Assembly (NCBI RefSeq): GCF_002572525.1
Contig: NZ_PDBS01000001.1
Coordinates: 2,418,001 to 2,482,000 of the forward strand
Source of the DNA: Natrinema sp. CBA1119
GTDB taxonomy: Archaea > Halobacteriota > Halobacteria > Halobacteriales > Natrialbaceae
DNA length: 64,000 nt
Direction of reading: 5' to 3'
Shown here: piece by piece, positions 167-39,024 of the stretch
Position numbering within the stretch: position 1 is the first letter of the stretch
Layout: each line of letters starts with the position of its first letter
Position numbers and translations under genes: made by a program
Notes under the pieces: model-generated
What the model was told of the DNA's origin: nothing
Seen by the model: only the letters and a program-made list of their open reading frames with translations
Database searches by the model: none

Positions 167-706
167 CTACCCACGCGTGGGCGCGGATCGATACCCGTCT
201 TCCGTCTTCTCTGCGAGATCGAGCAGAACGGCCCACTCGAGCAGCCGTTCGATCCGTTCGCGCTGCTTCTCTTCGGCGCGGATCGGACGCCGTCCACGTT
301 CACCGGATTGTCGTCGCTCTTCGCGGACCGCTGTGGCAATCTCACTAGCGGTCAGCGAGCCGTCGGCTCGCTCGAGCGCTGAAAGCACTGCGTCGGCTCC
401 GTCCACCCGCTCTCGAAACGCTCGACGGAGCCGGTCGGGCTCGAGCGCTGATGGGGTGTCCGAATCGGTCTCCGCACTCGAGCCTGGATCACGGCGGCGA
501 AAGCCCGCCGGCTCCTCGGTCGCGAGCTCGAGCGCGCGCAGGAAGGTGAGCCACGTCGCCGCCTCGTCGCGCGTTTCGAGGGGCGTCTCGTCGACGAGGA
601 GTTGACAGCAGTCGTCGGCGTCGCCGGCGGCCGCGGGGAGGGTGCGGCGGATTGTCTCGACCGCGGCGAGATCCGCGGGCGGTTCGGGGACCGGCTTGAA
701 TCGCAC
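167..706 (-). CDS. Hypothetical acidic protein in operon with mch
   Basis: This 179-residue protein starts with GTG at 706, two bases after the mch stop, so the pair is almost certainly co-transcribed and translationally coupled. An upstream in-frame extension exists but lies inside mch, so the GTG is preferred. The N-terminal half contains a CC pair near residue 35 and a helical stretch. A charged Ser/Asp linker follows, and the last 70 residues are Arg/Glu-rich, ending in a segment that could be a small winged-helix-like fold (LLEWAVLLDLAEKTEDGYR). I recognise no family with confidence. The tie to mch suggests a role connected with C1-carrier metabolism or only shared expression; this is inference. 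Confidence 0.7.
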   Translation of the reverse strand: MRFKPVPEPPADLAAVETIRRTLPAAAGDADDCCQLLVDETPLETRDEAATWLTFLRALELATEEPAGFRRRDPGSSAETDSDTPSALEPDRLRRAFRERVDGADAVLSALERADGSLTASEIATAVREERRQSGERGRRPIRAEEKQRERIERLLEWAVLLDLAEKTEDGYRSAPTRG

Positions 707-708
707 GG

Positions 709-1641
709 CTACAGGTCGAAGGAGTCGACGAGCAGGTCCTCGTCCGTTTCGCCGTGGACGTACGTCGGCCCGCCGATCACGTCGATCGTCACCGCCGCGG
801 GCGCGAAGAGATCCGACGGCACCTCCGAGAAATCCCACTCGAGGTCGTCGAAGACCTCGCCGAGCGGCCGGCCGTGATCCTCGGCGGCGCTCGAGGGCAC
901 CGAGTCGAAGATATCGGCGTCCTCGCGGACCGTGAGGTGTGCGCGCCCGCCGTAGGCAATCGCGTCGTTCGTCCGCGCGATGGCCGTCCGCTCGTCACCC
1001 GCGACGGGCGCGACGGGCGCACGCCCGGTCGCGGAGACGATGTCGAGCGGGTCGTAGCCCAGTTCCGAGAGCCGGAAGGTCGCGAGTTCGGCCGCGCGGG
1101 CGGCGTTCGTAATGCTCCCCGTGAGGCTCGCGGTCGGATAAGCCAGCAGGAACACGCTGCTCGTCTCGACCTCGGCGCGCTCGGCGACGTGCTCGGCCAC
1201 GGACTCGGTCGGATCCGCCTCCGTCTCGATGGCCAGCGCCGTCAGATCGAATGCGTCGGTGTAGCCGATGCGGCGGAACTCCTCCTCTTCGGCCACCAGC
1301 GCCCGAGCGGGACCGCTGCCGAGCCCCTCGAAGTCCTCGGTCAGTACCTCCCAGCCCGCCTTCTGGGAACACAGCAACGAGAGCGCCGGCTGATCCGTCG
1401 AGAGCTCGACGAAGGGGATCGACGCGTCGCCGAGCTCGCCGAGTTCGTAGCTCGGCGTCGCCATCCCCGCCGTCTGAATTTCGGTCAACAGGAGCCCGGC
1501 CTCGATACCGCCGTCGAACTCGAGGCCGAAGTCGAGTACCGTCGATTCGTTCTCGAGGTCGTAGCCCCCGATATTCAACTCCTCGGCGTAGTCGAGGGCC
1601 TCGTCGACCAACTCGATCGCCATTCGATTGAGACTTTCCAT
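709..1641 (-). CDS. mch: Methenyltetrahydromethanopterin cyclohydrolase
   Basis: The enzyme interconverts 5,10-methenyl and 10-formyl forms of the pterin C1 carrier in the cytoplasm. In haloarchaea, which make no methane, it serves C1-unit transfer with folate/pterin-type carriers. The 310 residues match the family length. The N-terminus MESLNRMAIELVDEAL is characteristic, and the C-terminal half keeps the family block around VSATGRAPVAPVAGD. The ATG at 1641 is the natural start. Upstream lie a purine-rich GGAGGGTGA and a TATA-like TTTTACTA at about 1664-1672. A small hypothetical gene follows 2 nt downstream. Confidence 0.95.
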   Translation of the reverse strand: MESLNRMAIELVDEALDYAEELNIGGYDLENESTVLDFGLEFDGGIEAGLLLTEIQTAGMATPSYELGELGDASIPFVELSTDQPALSLLCSQKAGWEVLTEDFEGLGSGPARALVAEEEEFRRIGYTDAFDLTALAIETEADPTESVAEHVAERAEVETSSVFLLAYPTASLTGSITNAARAAELATFRLSELGYDPLDIVSATGRAPVAPVAGDERTAIARTNDAIAYGGRAHLTVREDADIFDSVPSSAAEDHGRPLGEVFDDLEWDFSEVPSDLFAPAAVTIDVIGGPTYVHGETDEDLLVDSFDL

Positions 1642-2070: not shown

Positions 2071-2243
2071 ACGGACCACTGATAGCCGGGCGGAACCTAA
2101 ATACCGCGTTCGACGGATCATCTCACCGGGTTTCCGTCAACTGCTCGTGAGCGCCGAACGGATGCGGTGCTCACGGTCAGTCGGCAGTGTGTGCGGAGAA
2201 AAACGACCAGTGGGACCGGGATCGGGGCAGTGACCGCCGGCGG

Positions 2244-2597
2244 TCAGTTCGTGGTCGGCGTCCGGGGCGTCTCCGCGGGCGGGTAGATGATGACGTCGCC
2301 GTTCGCGTAGACGTACACCTCGTGCTCGAGGGCGGTGAACGCGACGTGGCCGCCCGCACGATCGGAGCCGTCCGCCTTCTGGCTGAAGATACGGTCGAGT
2401 GCGTCCGGGTCGACGCTATCGTACAGGGAGAATTCCCCCTGCGAGACGTCGGTGTCCGCGATCGATGCGAGCGCGTGGACGATCGTGGTGGTAATGGTGG
2501 CGGTGCCGTCGACATCGTGGTGGAAGACGTACCGATCGTTTGGCTGGTCGTACTGGAGATCGTCCGTGCCGTCTGCGGGTGAGAGTTCAGTTTGCAT
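2244..2597 (-). CDS. HalOD1 output-domain protein
   Basis: This 117-residue protein consists of a single HalOD1 domain, a haloarchaea-specific small domain often found as a stand-alone protein or as the output of two-component receivers. The family pattern is visible: an N-terminal helix with ALASIADTDVSQGEFSLYDSVDPDALDRIF, then a beta hairpin VAFTALEHEVYVYANGDVIIYP. The function of the domain is not established; a signalling or regulatory role is assumed. A second family member sits at 40530-40808. The gene is followed convergently by nothing close, and it has its own promoter. Confidence 0.85.
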   Translation of the reverse strand: MQTELSPADGTDDLQYDQPNDRYVFHHDVDGTATITTTIVHALASIADTDVSQGEFSLYDSVDPDALDRIFSQKADGSDRAGGHVAFTALEHEVYVYANGDVIIYPPAETPRTPTTN

Positions 2598-3114
2598 TGC
2601 TATATCTGATCGTTCAATCGTGTATTAGACTGTAGTTACTCATAGTATAAAAGCCACTCGTCGCCGACAATAGTATGTATATGTGAGATACCATCCTCTA
2701 TTAGTATAATACGTCAAATACCACTGCTAGCGGCTGGTTGCGCGTCTCATCGCCAGCGTCACAGCGATGACACTCGCGACAATACGAGCTTTTGCAACGA
2801 CAATCGATTATTTCCGGTCAAACTCGACCCCTCACTCCATAGTACAGTTCCCGTCGCGGCGATCTCGCTTCCCCGACCTCCGCGTGACGGGCCGCTTCGT
2901 CGCACTCGCCAGTGGAGGTGGTTGTTCGAACGGGGGGCTTCGATAGTCGACCCCTACAGACGTGATTCGTGTGTACTGGATCGAGCGCTCCAACCGGTTG
3001 TGAAGGCCACGAGACTCTCGGACCGATTCGGATGGCGATGGCGACTGATCGATCTGCGAACCGCTTGCCACGGCCGCCCGCGGGCTTATCCACACACGCA
3101 CCCAATCCGACAAT
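2598..3114. other. Intergenic region, 517 bp
   Basis: No convincing gene. The first 150 bp are markedly AT-rich for this genome and hold the HalOD1 promoter. The remainder returns to high G+C. A TATA-like CTTATC at about 3085-3090 lies about 27 nt ahead of the ATG at 3115, which fits a leaderless transcript for the DUF4112 gene. Confidence 0.5.
2646..2652 (-). promoter_or_regulatory. TATA box for the HalOD1 gene
   Basis: On the minus strand the sequence reads TTTTATA, centred about 50 nt before the ATG at 2597. A transcription start about 26 nt downstream would leave a short 5' leader of roughly 25 nt. It lies in the AT-rich part of the intergenic region. Confidence 0.45.
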
Positions 3115-3561
3115 ATGGCAACCGGTTCAACGGACGATTTCAGTTCGGAACTCGAGAAACTTCGCGATGACCTCCCCGCCGCCGTTGATGAGGCGGCGAT
3201 CGAGCGGATGCGCGTCGTCGCGCACGCCCTCGACGAAGGGGTCCGGGTCCCGGGGACGGACTTCAAGATCGGACTCGACCCGATCGTCGGGATCCTCCCA
3301 GGGGCCGGCGATACCGCAGCAGCGGTCGTCTCGCTGTATCTCGTGGCTGAATCCGCTCGAATGGGCGTCTCCCGGTCGACGCTCGCTCGGATGCTCGCGA
3401 ACGTCGGCATCGACGCCGTCATCGGCTCCGTCCCCCTTCTCGGCGTTATCTTCGACGCCTTCTGGAAGGCCAACAAGTGGAACCTGAAACTGGCCCTCAC
3501 GGATCTGGCGGAGGCGAGCGGCGACTCGACGGACGAACCGGAATCGGTACTCATCGACTGA
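3115..3561 (+). CDS. DUF4112 membrane protein
   Basis: A 148-residue protein. After a helical acidic N-terminus it has the DUF4112 core FKIGLDPIVGILPGAGD (about residues 50-66), followed by two hydrophobic helices (about 66-82 and 98-116) and a WKANKWNL segment on the polar side. Members occur widely in bacteria and archaea as small inner-membrane proteins of unknown role. The ATG at 3115 sits about 27 nt after a CTTATC box, consistent with leaderless expression. Confidence 0.85.
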   Translation: MATGSTDDFSSELEKLRDDLPAAVDEAAIERMRVVAHALDEGVRVPGTDFKIGLDPIVGILPGAGDTAAAVVSLYLVAESARMGVSRSTLARMLANVGIDAVIGSVPLLGVIFDAFWKANKWNLKLALTDLAEASGDSTDEPESVLID

Positions 3562-4958: not shown

Positions 4959-5053
4959 GCGCTGGCTGGGATTTGAACAACGCGAAGACGGTCCTGCTCG
5001 CTCACTTCGTTCGCTCACAGGCTGCGACTTCTCTCGTTCAAACCCAGGACGAT
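4959..5053 (-). repeat. tRNA-Gly tail element: T-arm inverted repeat with core
   Basis: Read on the minus strand, downstream of tRNA-Gly, this segment has three parts. It starts with an inverted imperfect copy of the tRNA T-arm (5036-5047) and continues with a 57-nt core. It ends in an exact 20-nt direct copy of the tRNA 3' end (4959-4978, identical to 5115-5134). The core carries AAGTCGCAGC (5021-5030), GAGCG-type repeats and GACCGTCTT (4985-4993). The same architecture and core words recur after tRNA-Pro at 38787-38870, with arms matching that tRNA instead. Confidence 0.75.
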
Positions 5054-5113
5054 TTCTCTGACCACGAATACTCGCGTTGCTACGCAACGCTCGCGATGTT
5101 GTGTTCAGAGAAA
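5053..5113 (-). repeat. Hairpin between tRNA-Gly and its tail element
   Basis: Outer arms TTTCTCTGA (5053-5061) and TCAGAGAAA (5105-5113) are perfect inverse complements. They enclose an inner perfect stem GCGTTGC-TAC-GCAACGC (5074-5090). It directly adjoins the 3' end of tRNA-Gly and could act in 3' processing or termination. A shorter hairpin occupies the same position after tRNA-Pro. Confidence 0.6.
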
Positions 5114-5184
5114 TGCGCTGGCTGGGATTTGAACCCAGGTTGTGACCATGGCAAGGTCACGTGATACCACTACACTACCAGCGC
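5114..5184 (-). tRNA. tRNA-Gly (anticodon GCC)
   Basis: A 71-nt cloverleaf with acceptor GCGCTGG pairing CCAGCGC, discriminator A at 5114 and a 5-bp anticodon stem TGACC/GGTCA closing the loop TTGCCAT (anticodon GCC). The T-arm is CTGGG-TTCAAAT-CCCAG. There is no intron, and CCA is not encoded. A TATA box lies about 35 nt upstream. Confidence 0.95.
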
Positions 5185-5487: not shown

Positions 5488-6363
5488 ATGACTGTCAGCG
5501 TACTCGTGCCGTCGTCAATCTGCCGGGAAGCCGAGGACAAACGCGAGGCAACTCGCAAACTTGGATACGTCGCCCGTGCGGCGACGATCTTCCGGGCCGA
5601 TCGCCTGGTCGTCTATCCCGATCGGGATGGGGAAACCGGGCGATTTGACGGCGGGTTCGTCAGCATCGTGTTGCGGTACGCCGCAACGCCCCCGTACCTC
5701 CGCAACGAGGCGTGGGGGATGCGGGACGAACTGGAGTACGCGGGCATCTTACCGCCGCTCCGCGCCATGTCACAGACCGGCTCCGAATCTACCGGTTCGG
5801 GGTCGTCAAGACAAGGAATCGTGACCGAGGTCGGACCTGAAGGGCGCGTCCGGGTCAATTGCGGACTGCAACACCCGATCTCTCTCAACGTACCGCCAAA
5901 CATGGCGGTCGAAGAGGGGGAGCGCGTGACCGTCAGGATCTCTTCGCGACGACCGGTCCGGGCGAAGCTCGTCGACGATCCCCTTCCGGGGCTTTCGATC
6001 GAGCAGACGGACCTGCGGGCAGCACTCGGCCGTGAGGACGCTGGCGTTCGTATCGCGGCCTCCCGATTCGGTGAAGAACTCACCGTCGGGCGGCTCGAGA
6101 CGCTGGCCGGACGCGTTCAGCGCGACGGGATGACCGTCGCCTTCGGCGCGCCCGAGAGAGGGCTGCCGGCTATCCTCGAAATCGAGGAATCCGCCGTCGG
6201 TGCTGCACAGGACGCAGCCGTCGACGGGGATAACGGAGTCGAACCCACTGCCGATCCGGGGTTCGACCTCTGGCTAAATACGGTTCCGGATCAGGGAAGC
6301 GAGGTCGTGCGAACGGAAGAAGCTCTGTTCGCCACCCTCGCGCCCCTCTCACTGAGAGAGTGA
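5488..6363 (+). CDS. Putative RNA (uridine) methyltransferase, SPOUT superfamily (DUF171)
   Basis: A 291-residue member of the archaeal DUF171/COG2106 family that habitually precedes rpl3. Members are SPOUT (alpha/beta-knot) enzymes predicted to methylate rRNA uridine using SAM. The N-terminal MTVSVLVPSSICREAEDKREATRKLGYVARAATIFRADRLVVYPD fits the first Rossmann-like half. An inserted OB-like barrel follows (about residues 108-165: GIVTEVGPEGRVRVNCGL). The knot part comes last, with MTVAFGAPERGLPAIL and FDLWLNTVPDQGSEVVRTEEALFATLAPL, the usual SAM-loop and C-terminal helix. It ends 4 nt before rpl3, so it is co-transcribed with it. Confidence 0.85.
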   Translation: MTVSVLVPSSICREAEDKREATRKLGYVARAATIFRADRLVVYPDRDGETGRFDGGFVSIVLRYAATPPYLRNEAWGMRDELEYAGILPPLRAMSQTGSESTGSGSSRQGIVTEVGPEGRVRVNCGLQHPISLNVPPNMAVEEGERVTVRISSRRPVRAKLVDDPLPGLSIEQTDLRAALGREDAGVRIAASRFGEELTVGRLETLAGRVQRDGMTVAFGAPERGLPAILEIEESAVGAAQDAAVDGDNGVEPTADPGFDLWLNTVPDQGSEVVRTEEALFATLAPLSLRE

Positions 6364-38670: not shown

Positions 38671-38741
38671 GGGACCGTGGGGTAGTGGTATCCTCTGCGG
38701 ATGGGGTCCGTAGGACCCGAGTTCAATTCTCGGCGGTCCCA
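38671..38741 (+). tRNA. tRNA-Pro (anticodon GGG)
   Basis: 71 nt. Acceptor GGGACCG pairs CGGTCCC, discriminator A at 38741. The anticodon stem TGCGG/CCGTA closes the loop ATGGGGT (anticodon GGG). The T-arm is CCGAG-TTCAATT-CTCGG. No intron and no encoded CCA. Confidence 0.95.
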
Positions 38742-38745
38742 TATT

Positions 38746-38773
38746 CTGTCGCGAACAGGATCGTGAGCGACAG
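38746..38773 (+). repeat. Hairpin between tRNA-Pro and its tail element
   Basis: CTGTCGC (38746-38752) and GCGACAG (38767-38773) form a perfect 7-bp stem with a 14-nt loop just after the tRNA, in the same relative place as the larger hairpin after tRNA-Gly. Confidence 0.5.
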
Positions 38774-38786
38774 ACTCTGGAAAGAG

Positions 38787-38870
38787 CCAAGAATTGAGCA
38801 CGCAAGTCGCAGCTGACGAGCGCGAGCGAGTCAGACCGTCTTGCATCTGTTCAATTCTCGGCGGTCCCAT
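38787..38870 (+). repeat. tRNA-Pro tail element: T-arm inverted repeat with core
   Basis: An inverted imperfect T-arm copy (38787-38799, 11 of 13 matching) comes first. A 49-nt core follows with AAGTCGCAGC (38804-38813), two GAGCG words and GACCGTCTT (38834-38842). It ends in an exact 22-nt copy of the tRNA-Pro 3' end (38849-38870, identical to 38721-38742). Element order and core words match those after tRNA-Gly. Confidence 0.75.
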
Positions 38871-39024
38871 TTTCGCGACGCAACGAGCGAGGGAGCGGAG
38901 CGACCATCGCAATGTGAGGAGAGATAACGGGAGCAGGGAGCAGTTTCGCTGCGACCGTGGTCCCACCCGGGATTATCTACGTGTTCAACTCCTCGCGTCT
39001 CGTACCTTCGAGCGGGACTCACAG

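Follow-up and report, generated by a model that had tools for sequence, protein, structure and literature searches.

Short folded units ending in a copy of the tRNA 3' end lie behind tRNA genes across the Halobacteria

Introduction

Archaeal integrases prefer the 3' ends of tRNA genes as integration sites, with 5' limits that vary (PMC8371274). At the att sites of tyrosine-integrase elements in tRNA genes, such as those of the archaeal SNJ2, pNOB8 and related elements, insertion occurs in the 3' part of the gene, the tRNA is restored, and a direct copy of its 3' end is found on the far side of the insert, which encodes its own integrase. In integrons, tandem gene cassettes each end in a folded, imperfect hairpin (attC) with an unpaired inner spacer and a variable terminal stem; the newest cassette lies beside the attI anchor, cassette order is shuffled, and one strand is selected. 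The core sites of attC read GTTRRRY (R') and RYYYAAC (R''). The integrons known from archaea (PMC9668308) are of the bacterial kind. Haloarchaea also carry short repeats, the SMRs and PATEs of Haloquadratum, among which SMR-A is ~110 bp long with inverted repeats and without a transposase, and its mobilisation is unexplained; SMRs produce no target duplication and insert in the palindromes of IS605/PATE elements (PMC3119063).

Here we describe non-coding units behind tRNA genes that recall each of these systems in part, starting from two of them in a 64,000-nt stretch of the genome of Natrinema sp. CBA1119 (hereafter the window). Like att sites in tRNA genes, the units leave the tRNA intact and flank the insert with a repeat of the tRNA 3' end, but they are only about 80-160 nt long, too short to encode an integrase of their own, they occur in arrays behind most tRNA types, and their folded core is conserved and preceded by an inverted T-loop arm. 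They share with integron arrays, in outline, the tandem arrangement, the folded imperfect hairpin with an unpaired inner spacer and variable terminal stem at the end of each cassette, the position of the newest member beside the anchor, the shuffled order and the selection of one strand. Their anchor, however, is a tRNA gene rather than attI, they are private to a tRNA type, and they carry no cargo ORF, for which typical units have no room; moreover, their 3' arm reads GTTCAAA or GTTCGAA, which departs from the R' consensus. With SMRs and PATEs they have in common their shortness, their inverted repeats, the lack of a transposase and haloarchaeal hosts, whereas SMRs neither duplicate their target nor lie at tRNA ends. 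We found no published description of the units in the open-access literature, although an earlier account in other journals is possible.

Results

The first of the two loci lies on the forward strand behind tRNA-Pro (GGG; 38671-38741), a gene that congeners carry without the unit. Sequence inspection and ARAGORN confirmed the order reported in the first-pass annotation, namely a hairpin, an inverted T-arm, a core and a direct copy of the tRNA 3' end. The hairpin, H1 (38745-38774), is formed by CTGTCGC and GCGACAG (38746-38773) and is of a type found in most units. It is followed by the inverted T-loop arm AGAATTGAGCA (38790-38800), which pairs with 38848-38858 in the arm helix, and by the core, in which the conserved 5' half AAGTCGCAGC (38804-38813) and 3' half GACCGTCTT (38834-38842) enclose a variable terminal hairpin (TGACGAGCGCGAGCGAGTCA, 38814-38833) whose stem covaries between units. 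The unit ends in the direct copy GTTCAATTCTCGGCGGTCCCAT (38849-38870), which runs from the T-loop to the discriminator plus one T. The exact 22-nt match to tRNA-Pro that the annotation had assigned to both arms holds for this direct copy, while the inverted arm pairs over ~11 nt, corresponding to the T-loop and part of the T-stem. The stretch from arm to copy (38785-38872) folds far better than shuffled sequence (z = -4.75).

Downstream of the copy lies an older tail (TTTTCGCGACGCAACGAG..., 38871-38928). In several congeners without the unit, this tail adjoins tRNA-Pro itself; it is probably the H1 region of the older, decayed unit next to it. That second unit, which has a different core type (CAGGGAG-CAGTTTCGCTG-CGACCGTGG), occupies 38934-38965 and ends in the truncated copy GGTCCCA; related remnants are present in several congeners, and the same core type is intact in tRNA-Val units of two congeners (loci L263 and L264). 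These two loci differ in the orientation of the terminal hairpin of one core type, which reads GCAGC-GAA-GCTGC in one and, inverted, GCAGC-TTT/TTC-GCTGC in the other, as if it had flipped.

On the reverse strand, tRNA-Gly (GCC; 5114-5184) is followed by a second unit with the same core words in the same order, as had been proposed. It comprises an H1 hairpin with a further hairpin nested in it (5053-5113), the inverted T-loop arm (CTGGGTTTGAAC, 5037-5048), a core (4985-5030) made up of AAGTCGCAGC (5021-5030), a variable hairpin and GACCGTCTT (4985-4993), and a direct copy of the tRNA-Gly 3' end (GTTCAAATCCCAGCCAGCGC, 4959-4978). From arm to copy, this unit too folds far better than shuffled sequence (z = -3.64). 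A common core combined with arms from each unit's own tRNA is thus supported, but the idea that the core is fixed had to be abandoned: several further core types occur in this arrangement and together make up a family rather than a single sequence.

Neither core word is rare in the window when taken alone, since the observed count was attained in 72 of 100 shuffles for AAGTCGCAGC and in 36 of 100 for GACCGTCTT. The joint, ordered pattern, in contrast, has five occurrences in the genome (5.06 Mb), each directly behind a tRNA gene (Lys, Val, Arg, Gly and Pro), whereas the reversed control pattern has none. Of the 47 tRNA matches in this genome, ~19 are followed 70-150 nt downstream by a direct repeat of the tRNA's 3' end, which an H1 hairpin often precedes and a similar tail often follows. 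By a stricter count, 16 of 31 tRNAs have such a copy within 400 nt downstream and one has a copy upstream; a full-length inverted copy lies downstream of a single tRNA. More than half of the tRNAs of this genome have no unit.

We then determined how widely the units are distributed. A scan of named genomes with the core plus GTTC as query returned at least 120 stretches. Among the matches listed, all were from Halobacteria except for two in Rhizobium without a tRNA, nearly all lay downstream of a same-strand tRNA, at a distance of 46-360 nt, together with a copy of that tRNA's 3' end, and the host tRNAs covered about 18 amino-acid types. A covariance model built from 30 units matched 285 of 292 Halobacteria genomes, representing 73 of 77 genera, and had no match in about 242 genomes of the phylum outside this class. 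Thus, both of the tRNA-tail elements originally noted are present, but they belong to a class-wide family that forms arrays.

The same model was used to ask where the units lie. Among the 82 strong matches in four genomes (full-length, E <= 1e-4), 77 fell within 1 kb downstream of a same-strand tRNA, compared with an expectation of 0.6-1%. This is the opposite of a core found mostly away from tRNA genes and supports the earlier claim that the element is confined to tRNA 3' ends. Three of the five exceptions do have an upstream tRNA: in locus L310, tRNA-Lys lies 5 kb away with an integrase element in between, and in L311 and L314 the upstream tRNA-Pro genes were missing from the tRNA-model list. 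The remaining two end in a tRNA-like 3' copy, with no tRNA in the stretch read. On plasmids, the only two matches were on haloarchaeal megaplasmids, one of them behind an intact tRNA-Gly. The second, in Natrinema thermotolerans (CP031304.1, 987 kb, about 232380-238462; L228), lies behind a 3' end of the tRNA-Glu type, not recognised as a tRNA by ARAGORN, which may belong to a degenerate or intron-containing tRNA.

An Rfam search of the window gave no match on the units, even at a relaxed threshold; the only matches above the gathering score were to tRNAs and an L4 leader, and sub-threshold matches fell on tRNAs. The leader match (5837-5936, forward strand) is a strong one to the L4-Archaeoglobi ribosomal protein leader (RF03135, 73.5 bits), here in a haloarchaeon.

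Comparison of orthologous tRNAs revealed both occupied and empty sites, as the annotation had suggested might be found, at tRNA-Pro, tRNA-Ile and tRNA-Val. None of 12 congeners has the Pro unit of this genome at the corresponding position, not even the nearest, in which the region upstream of tRNA-Ile is 99% identical. This distribution suggests that the Pro unit was gained; however, because a decayed older unit is also present at the locus, this genome could instead have retained a unit that the others lost. At tRNA-Ile, 13, 11 and 5 of 29 congeners have 0, 1 and 2 units, respectively; the 21 Ile units fall into 12 groups at 85% identity, with members of groups B, C and F coming first in the array in certain genomes and second in others. 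The tRNA-Val arrays of 29 congeners range from 0 to 4 units. More generally, tandem arrays reach 4-5 units, and their number and order vary between sister species. In the tRNA-Gly (GCC) arrays of L053 and L149, whole tRNA-Gly genes are duplicated inside the array, so that tRNA and unit are at times amplified jointly.

The copy, which comprises the last 20-22 nt of the unit's own tRNA, is closely matched to its host. It is identical to the tRNA at 19 or more of 20 positions in 81 of 105 units, and at acceptor-side diagnostic sites it agrees with the tRNA of its own species in 225 cases and with that of another species in 7. Copy preservation, an indirect measure of unit age, is polar along the arrays: where at least two copies are present, the tRNA-proximal copy is better preserved in 60 arrays and the distal copy in 5, and when both copies match at 16 or more of 20 positions the proximal copy is better in 30 and the distal in 2. 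By this indirect measure, the newest unit lies beside the anchor, as it does in integrons. The H1 and spacer sequences are more alike within a tRNA type (likeness score 18.4) than between types (10.7), and this relatedness holds across species, indicating that each unit stays with one tRNA type instead of moving at will from tRNA to tRNA. The restriction to tRNA ends and the occupied and empty sites agree with the earlier proposal of a tiny mobile element that targets tRNA 3' ends, although such movement would be confined to one tRNA type.

The fold of the units is conserved. The covariation score of 0.215 compares with 0.118 for shuffled alignments, is reached in 0 of 500 shuffles and falls when the pairing partners are slid, and nine pairs have changed on both sides. 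The inverted arm tracks the A/G variant of the T-loop of its own tRNA, with C replacing T in the arm where the T-loop has G (UA in 23 units, CG in 6). The claim that the arm derives from the unit's own tRNA accordingly stands in so far as it follows this variant, although the arm covers only the nearly universal T-loop. We also asked whether the inverted arm pairs with the acceptor strand and rejected this, as the arm matched its own tRNA at 6.5 and other tRNAs at 6.1 of 12 positions, which is not above random.

To identify the folded strand, we examined mismatches in the arm across 138 aligned matches. The wobble was kept on the tRNA-sense strand in 108 cases and on the other strand in 24, and in the 5' arm, A-to-G changes, which keep a G.U pair, are far commoner than T-to-C changes, which leave a broken C.A. 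The folded strand is therefore the tRNA-sense strand. The same arm counts of G.T versus A.C rule out folding of the antisense strand, the counterpart of the bottom strand in integrons. In the terminal stem, an initial wobble count of 12:1 became 7:7 on a larger, structure-fitted alignment, such that the strand call rests on the arm. Together, the covariation and the one-sided tolerance of G.U pairs demonstrate selection for a fold of the tRNA-sense strand. This tolerance is explained by RNA no less well than by single-stranded DNA. The apical loop is a C-GNA-G triloop in 89 of 113 units; C-GNA-G is a stable triloop in DNA, which gives only a hint that the folded strand is DNA. An origin from an archaeal intron at the T-loop was also considered; inspection of the core by eye revealed no 3-4-3 bulge-helix-bulge.

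Discussion

We favor, at not quite even chances, the reading that the units are non-coding, non-autonomous micro-cassettes inserted at the T-loop and 3' end of tRNA genes by site-specific recombination, with the newest beside the tRNA. Each cassette would consist of H1, the inverted T-loop arm, the structured core and a stretch reaching from the T-loop to the 3' end. It would fold on the tRNA-sense strand and recombine with the T-loop/3'-end block in a tRNA of the matching type, such that its 3' end restores the tRNA while the former 3' end of the host becomes the far-side copy. New cassettes would thus enter beside the tRNA, arrays would grow outward, and distal, older cassettes would decay; recombination between the direct repeats could remove or reshuffle cassettes. 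From these features we infer three points: insertion occurs by site-specific recombination, a tyrosine recombinase acting in trans carries it out, and the strand that folds is DNA.

Such an insertion would account both for the match between each copy and its own tRNA and for the youth of the proximal copies, and units would be private to tRNA types because a cassette with the wrong acceptor sequence would break the tRNA. It would also make needless the previously suggested mechanism that copies the host tRNA end around a core, since after insertion in the T-loop/3' end the original end of the host tRNA would itself be the copy. Copy-number change, shuffling and homogenisation might also come from homologous recombination between the 21-nt repeats. 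We propose more tentatively the wider claim of an undescribed mobile system found throughout the class, in which gene-less cassettes that fold as single strands integrate newest first into tRNA ends of their own type to form a tRNA-anchored, integron-like array.

Possible, though in our judgment doubtful, is that the units are structured 3' trailer RNAs with a role for the host, co-transcribed with the tRNA, folding into H1 and the core hairpin and taking part in 3' processing, in termination or in regulation, perhaps as a decoy 3' end, while homologous recombination between the tRNA end and the copy shuffles and homogenises them. Selection on a tRNA-sense fold that tolerates G.U, the invariable location of units on the strand of the tRNA, their presence in 285 of 292 genomes and the persistent identity of the copy to its own tRNA would all be expected of such an RNA. 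However, the absence of units from more than half of the tRNAs here and the freedom with which sister species lose or replace them would be odd for a needed role, and neither polar decay nor restriction to a single class is predicted. Furthermore, a T-rich stretch directly 3' of the tRNA makes read-through uncertain, and Rfam holds no match. If the units are nonetheless trailers, they represent a class-wide, fast-evolving structured tRNA trailer that is missing from Rfam.

That the units are small transposon-like repeats (a MITE, an SMR or a single-strand element of the IS605/Y1 type) targeting the palindrome of the T-arm appears improbable. Their size (~110-130 nt), inverted arms, hairpins and single-strand folding do resemble those of haloarchaeal SMRs and PATEs (PMC3119063). 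Yet the units are accompanied by a tRNA-specific duplication of 20-22 nt and lie only behind tRNAs, whereas SMRs occupy IS605/PATE palindromes without any duplication, and units are closer within one tRNA type than across types.

A possible involvement of tyrosine integrases bears on the proposed cassette insertion as well as on a further explanation, which we consider very unlikely, that the units are att remnants left after the loss of proviruses or integrated plasmids. Integrases that cross over in the T-loop would be expected to leave an identity block with the limits of the copy, from T-loop to 3' end. In L310 (G173:C1:1909200-1915000), an element encoding a 340-aa Phage_integrase protein (gene at 441-1463, forward strand) has integrated in tRNA-Lys (CTT) and separates this gene from its unit, and the far end of the element is an exact 21-nt copy of the tRNA 3' end, GTTCAAATCGCGCCCGGCCCG, the same block as in the units. 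In L102, a 335-aa integrase gene (2222-3229, reverse strand) lies just upstream of a unit with a tRNA-Ala (GGC)-type 3' end, and in L103 an integrase whose C-terminus resembles that of L102 is encoded upstream of 2354, just upstream of a unit with the same type of end; in both cases the gene adjoins a truncated tRNA 3' copy and the tRNA lies outside the locus. Apart from the integrated elements in these three loci, no recombinase, IntI included, was found directly beside the units. Integrase-bearing elements between tRNA and unit or beside units, and an att block with the limits of the unit copy, are what scars would lead one to expect. On the other hand, H1, arm and core are common to all tRNA types and families, the ends of the integrase element itself do not have this structure, and decay products would not retain covarying helices. 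In addition, searches of IMG/VR and phage records found no match to the units and no complete unit in a viral or phage attP. Finally, chance likeness arising from the universal T-loop and the common haloarchaeal GAGCGAAGCGAG words has next to nothing to recommend it, for although single words are common in the window, the ordered pattern, the genome-wide association with tRNAs, the covariation and the class-wide model matches refute it.

Should the units indeed be micro-cassettes inserted by recombination, nearly every haloarchaeon would carry from a few to a few dozen minimal mobile cassettes that rewrite the 3' ends of its tRNA genes, and these would constitute a new kind of site-specific element. 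At ~80-160 nt, a cassette would be short enough that it may move as a folded single strand. Such cassettes would show how tRNA 3' ends and trailers evolve in the class, account for some of the disorder downstream of tRNA genes, a region in which proviruses and plasmids integrate, and provide a new integration tool for halophiles.

In the tRNA-Gly (TCC) array of Halorientalis marina (L074), ~1.5 kb of foreign-looking DNA separates the second copy of the tRNA 3' end from a third, which would fit integration of an element at the copy in a unit rather than at the tRNA.
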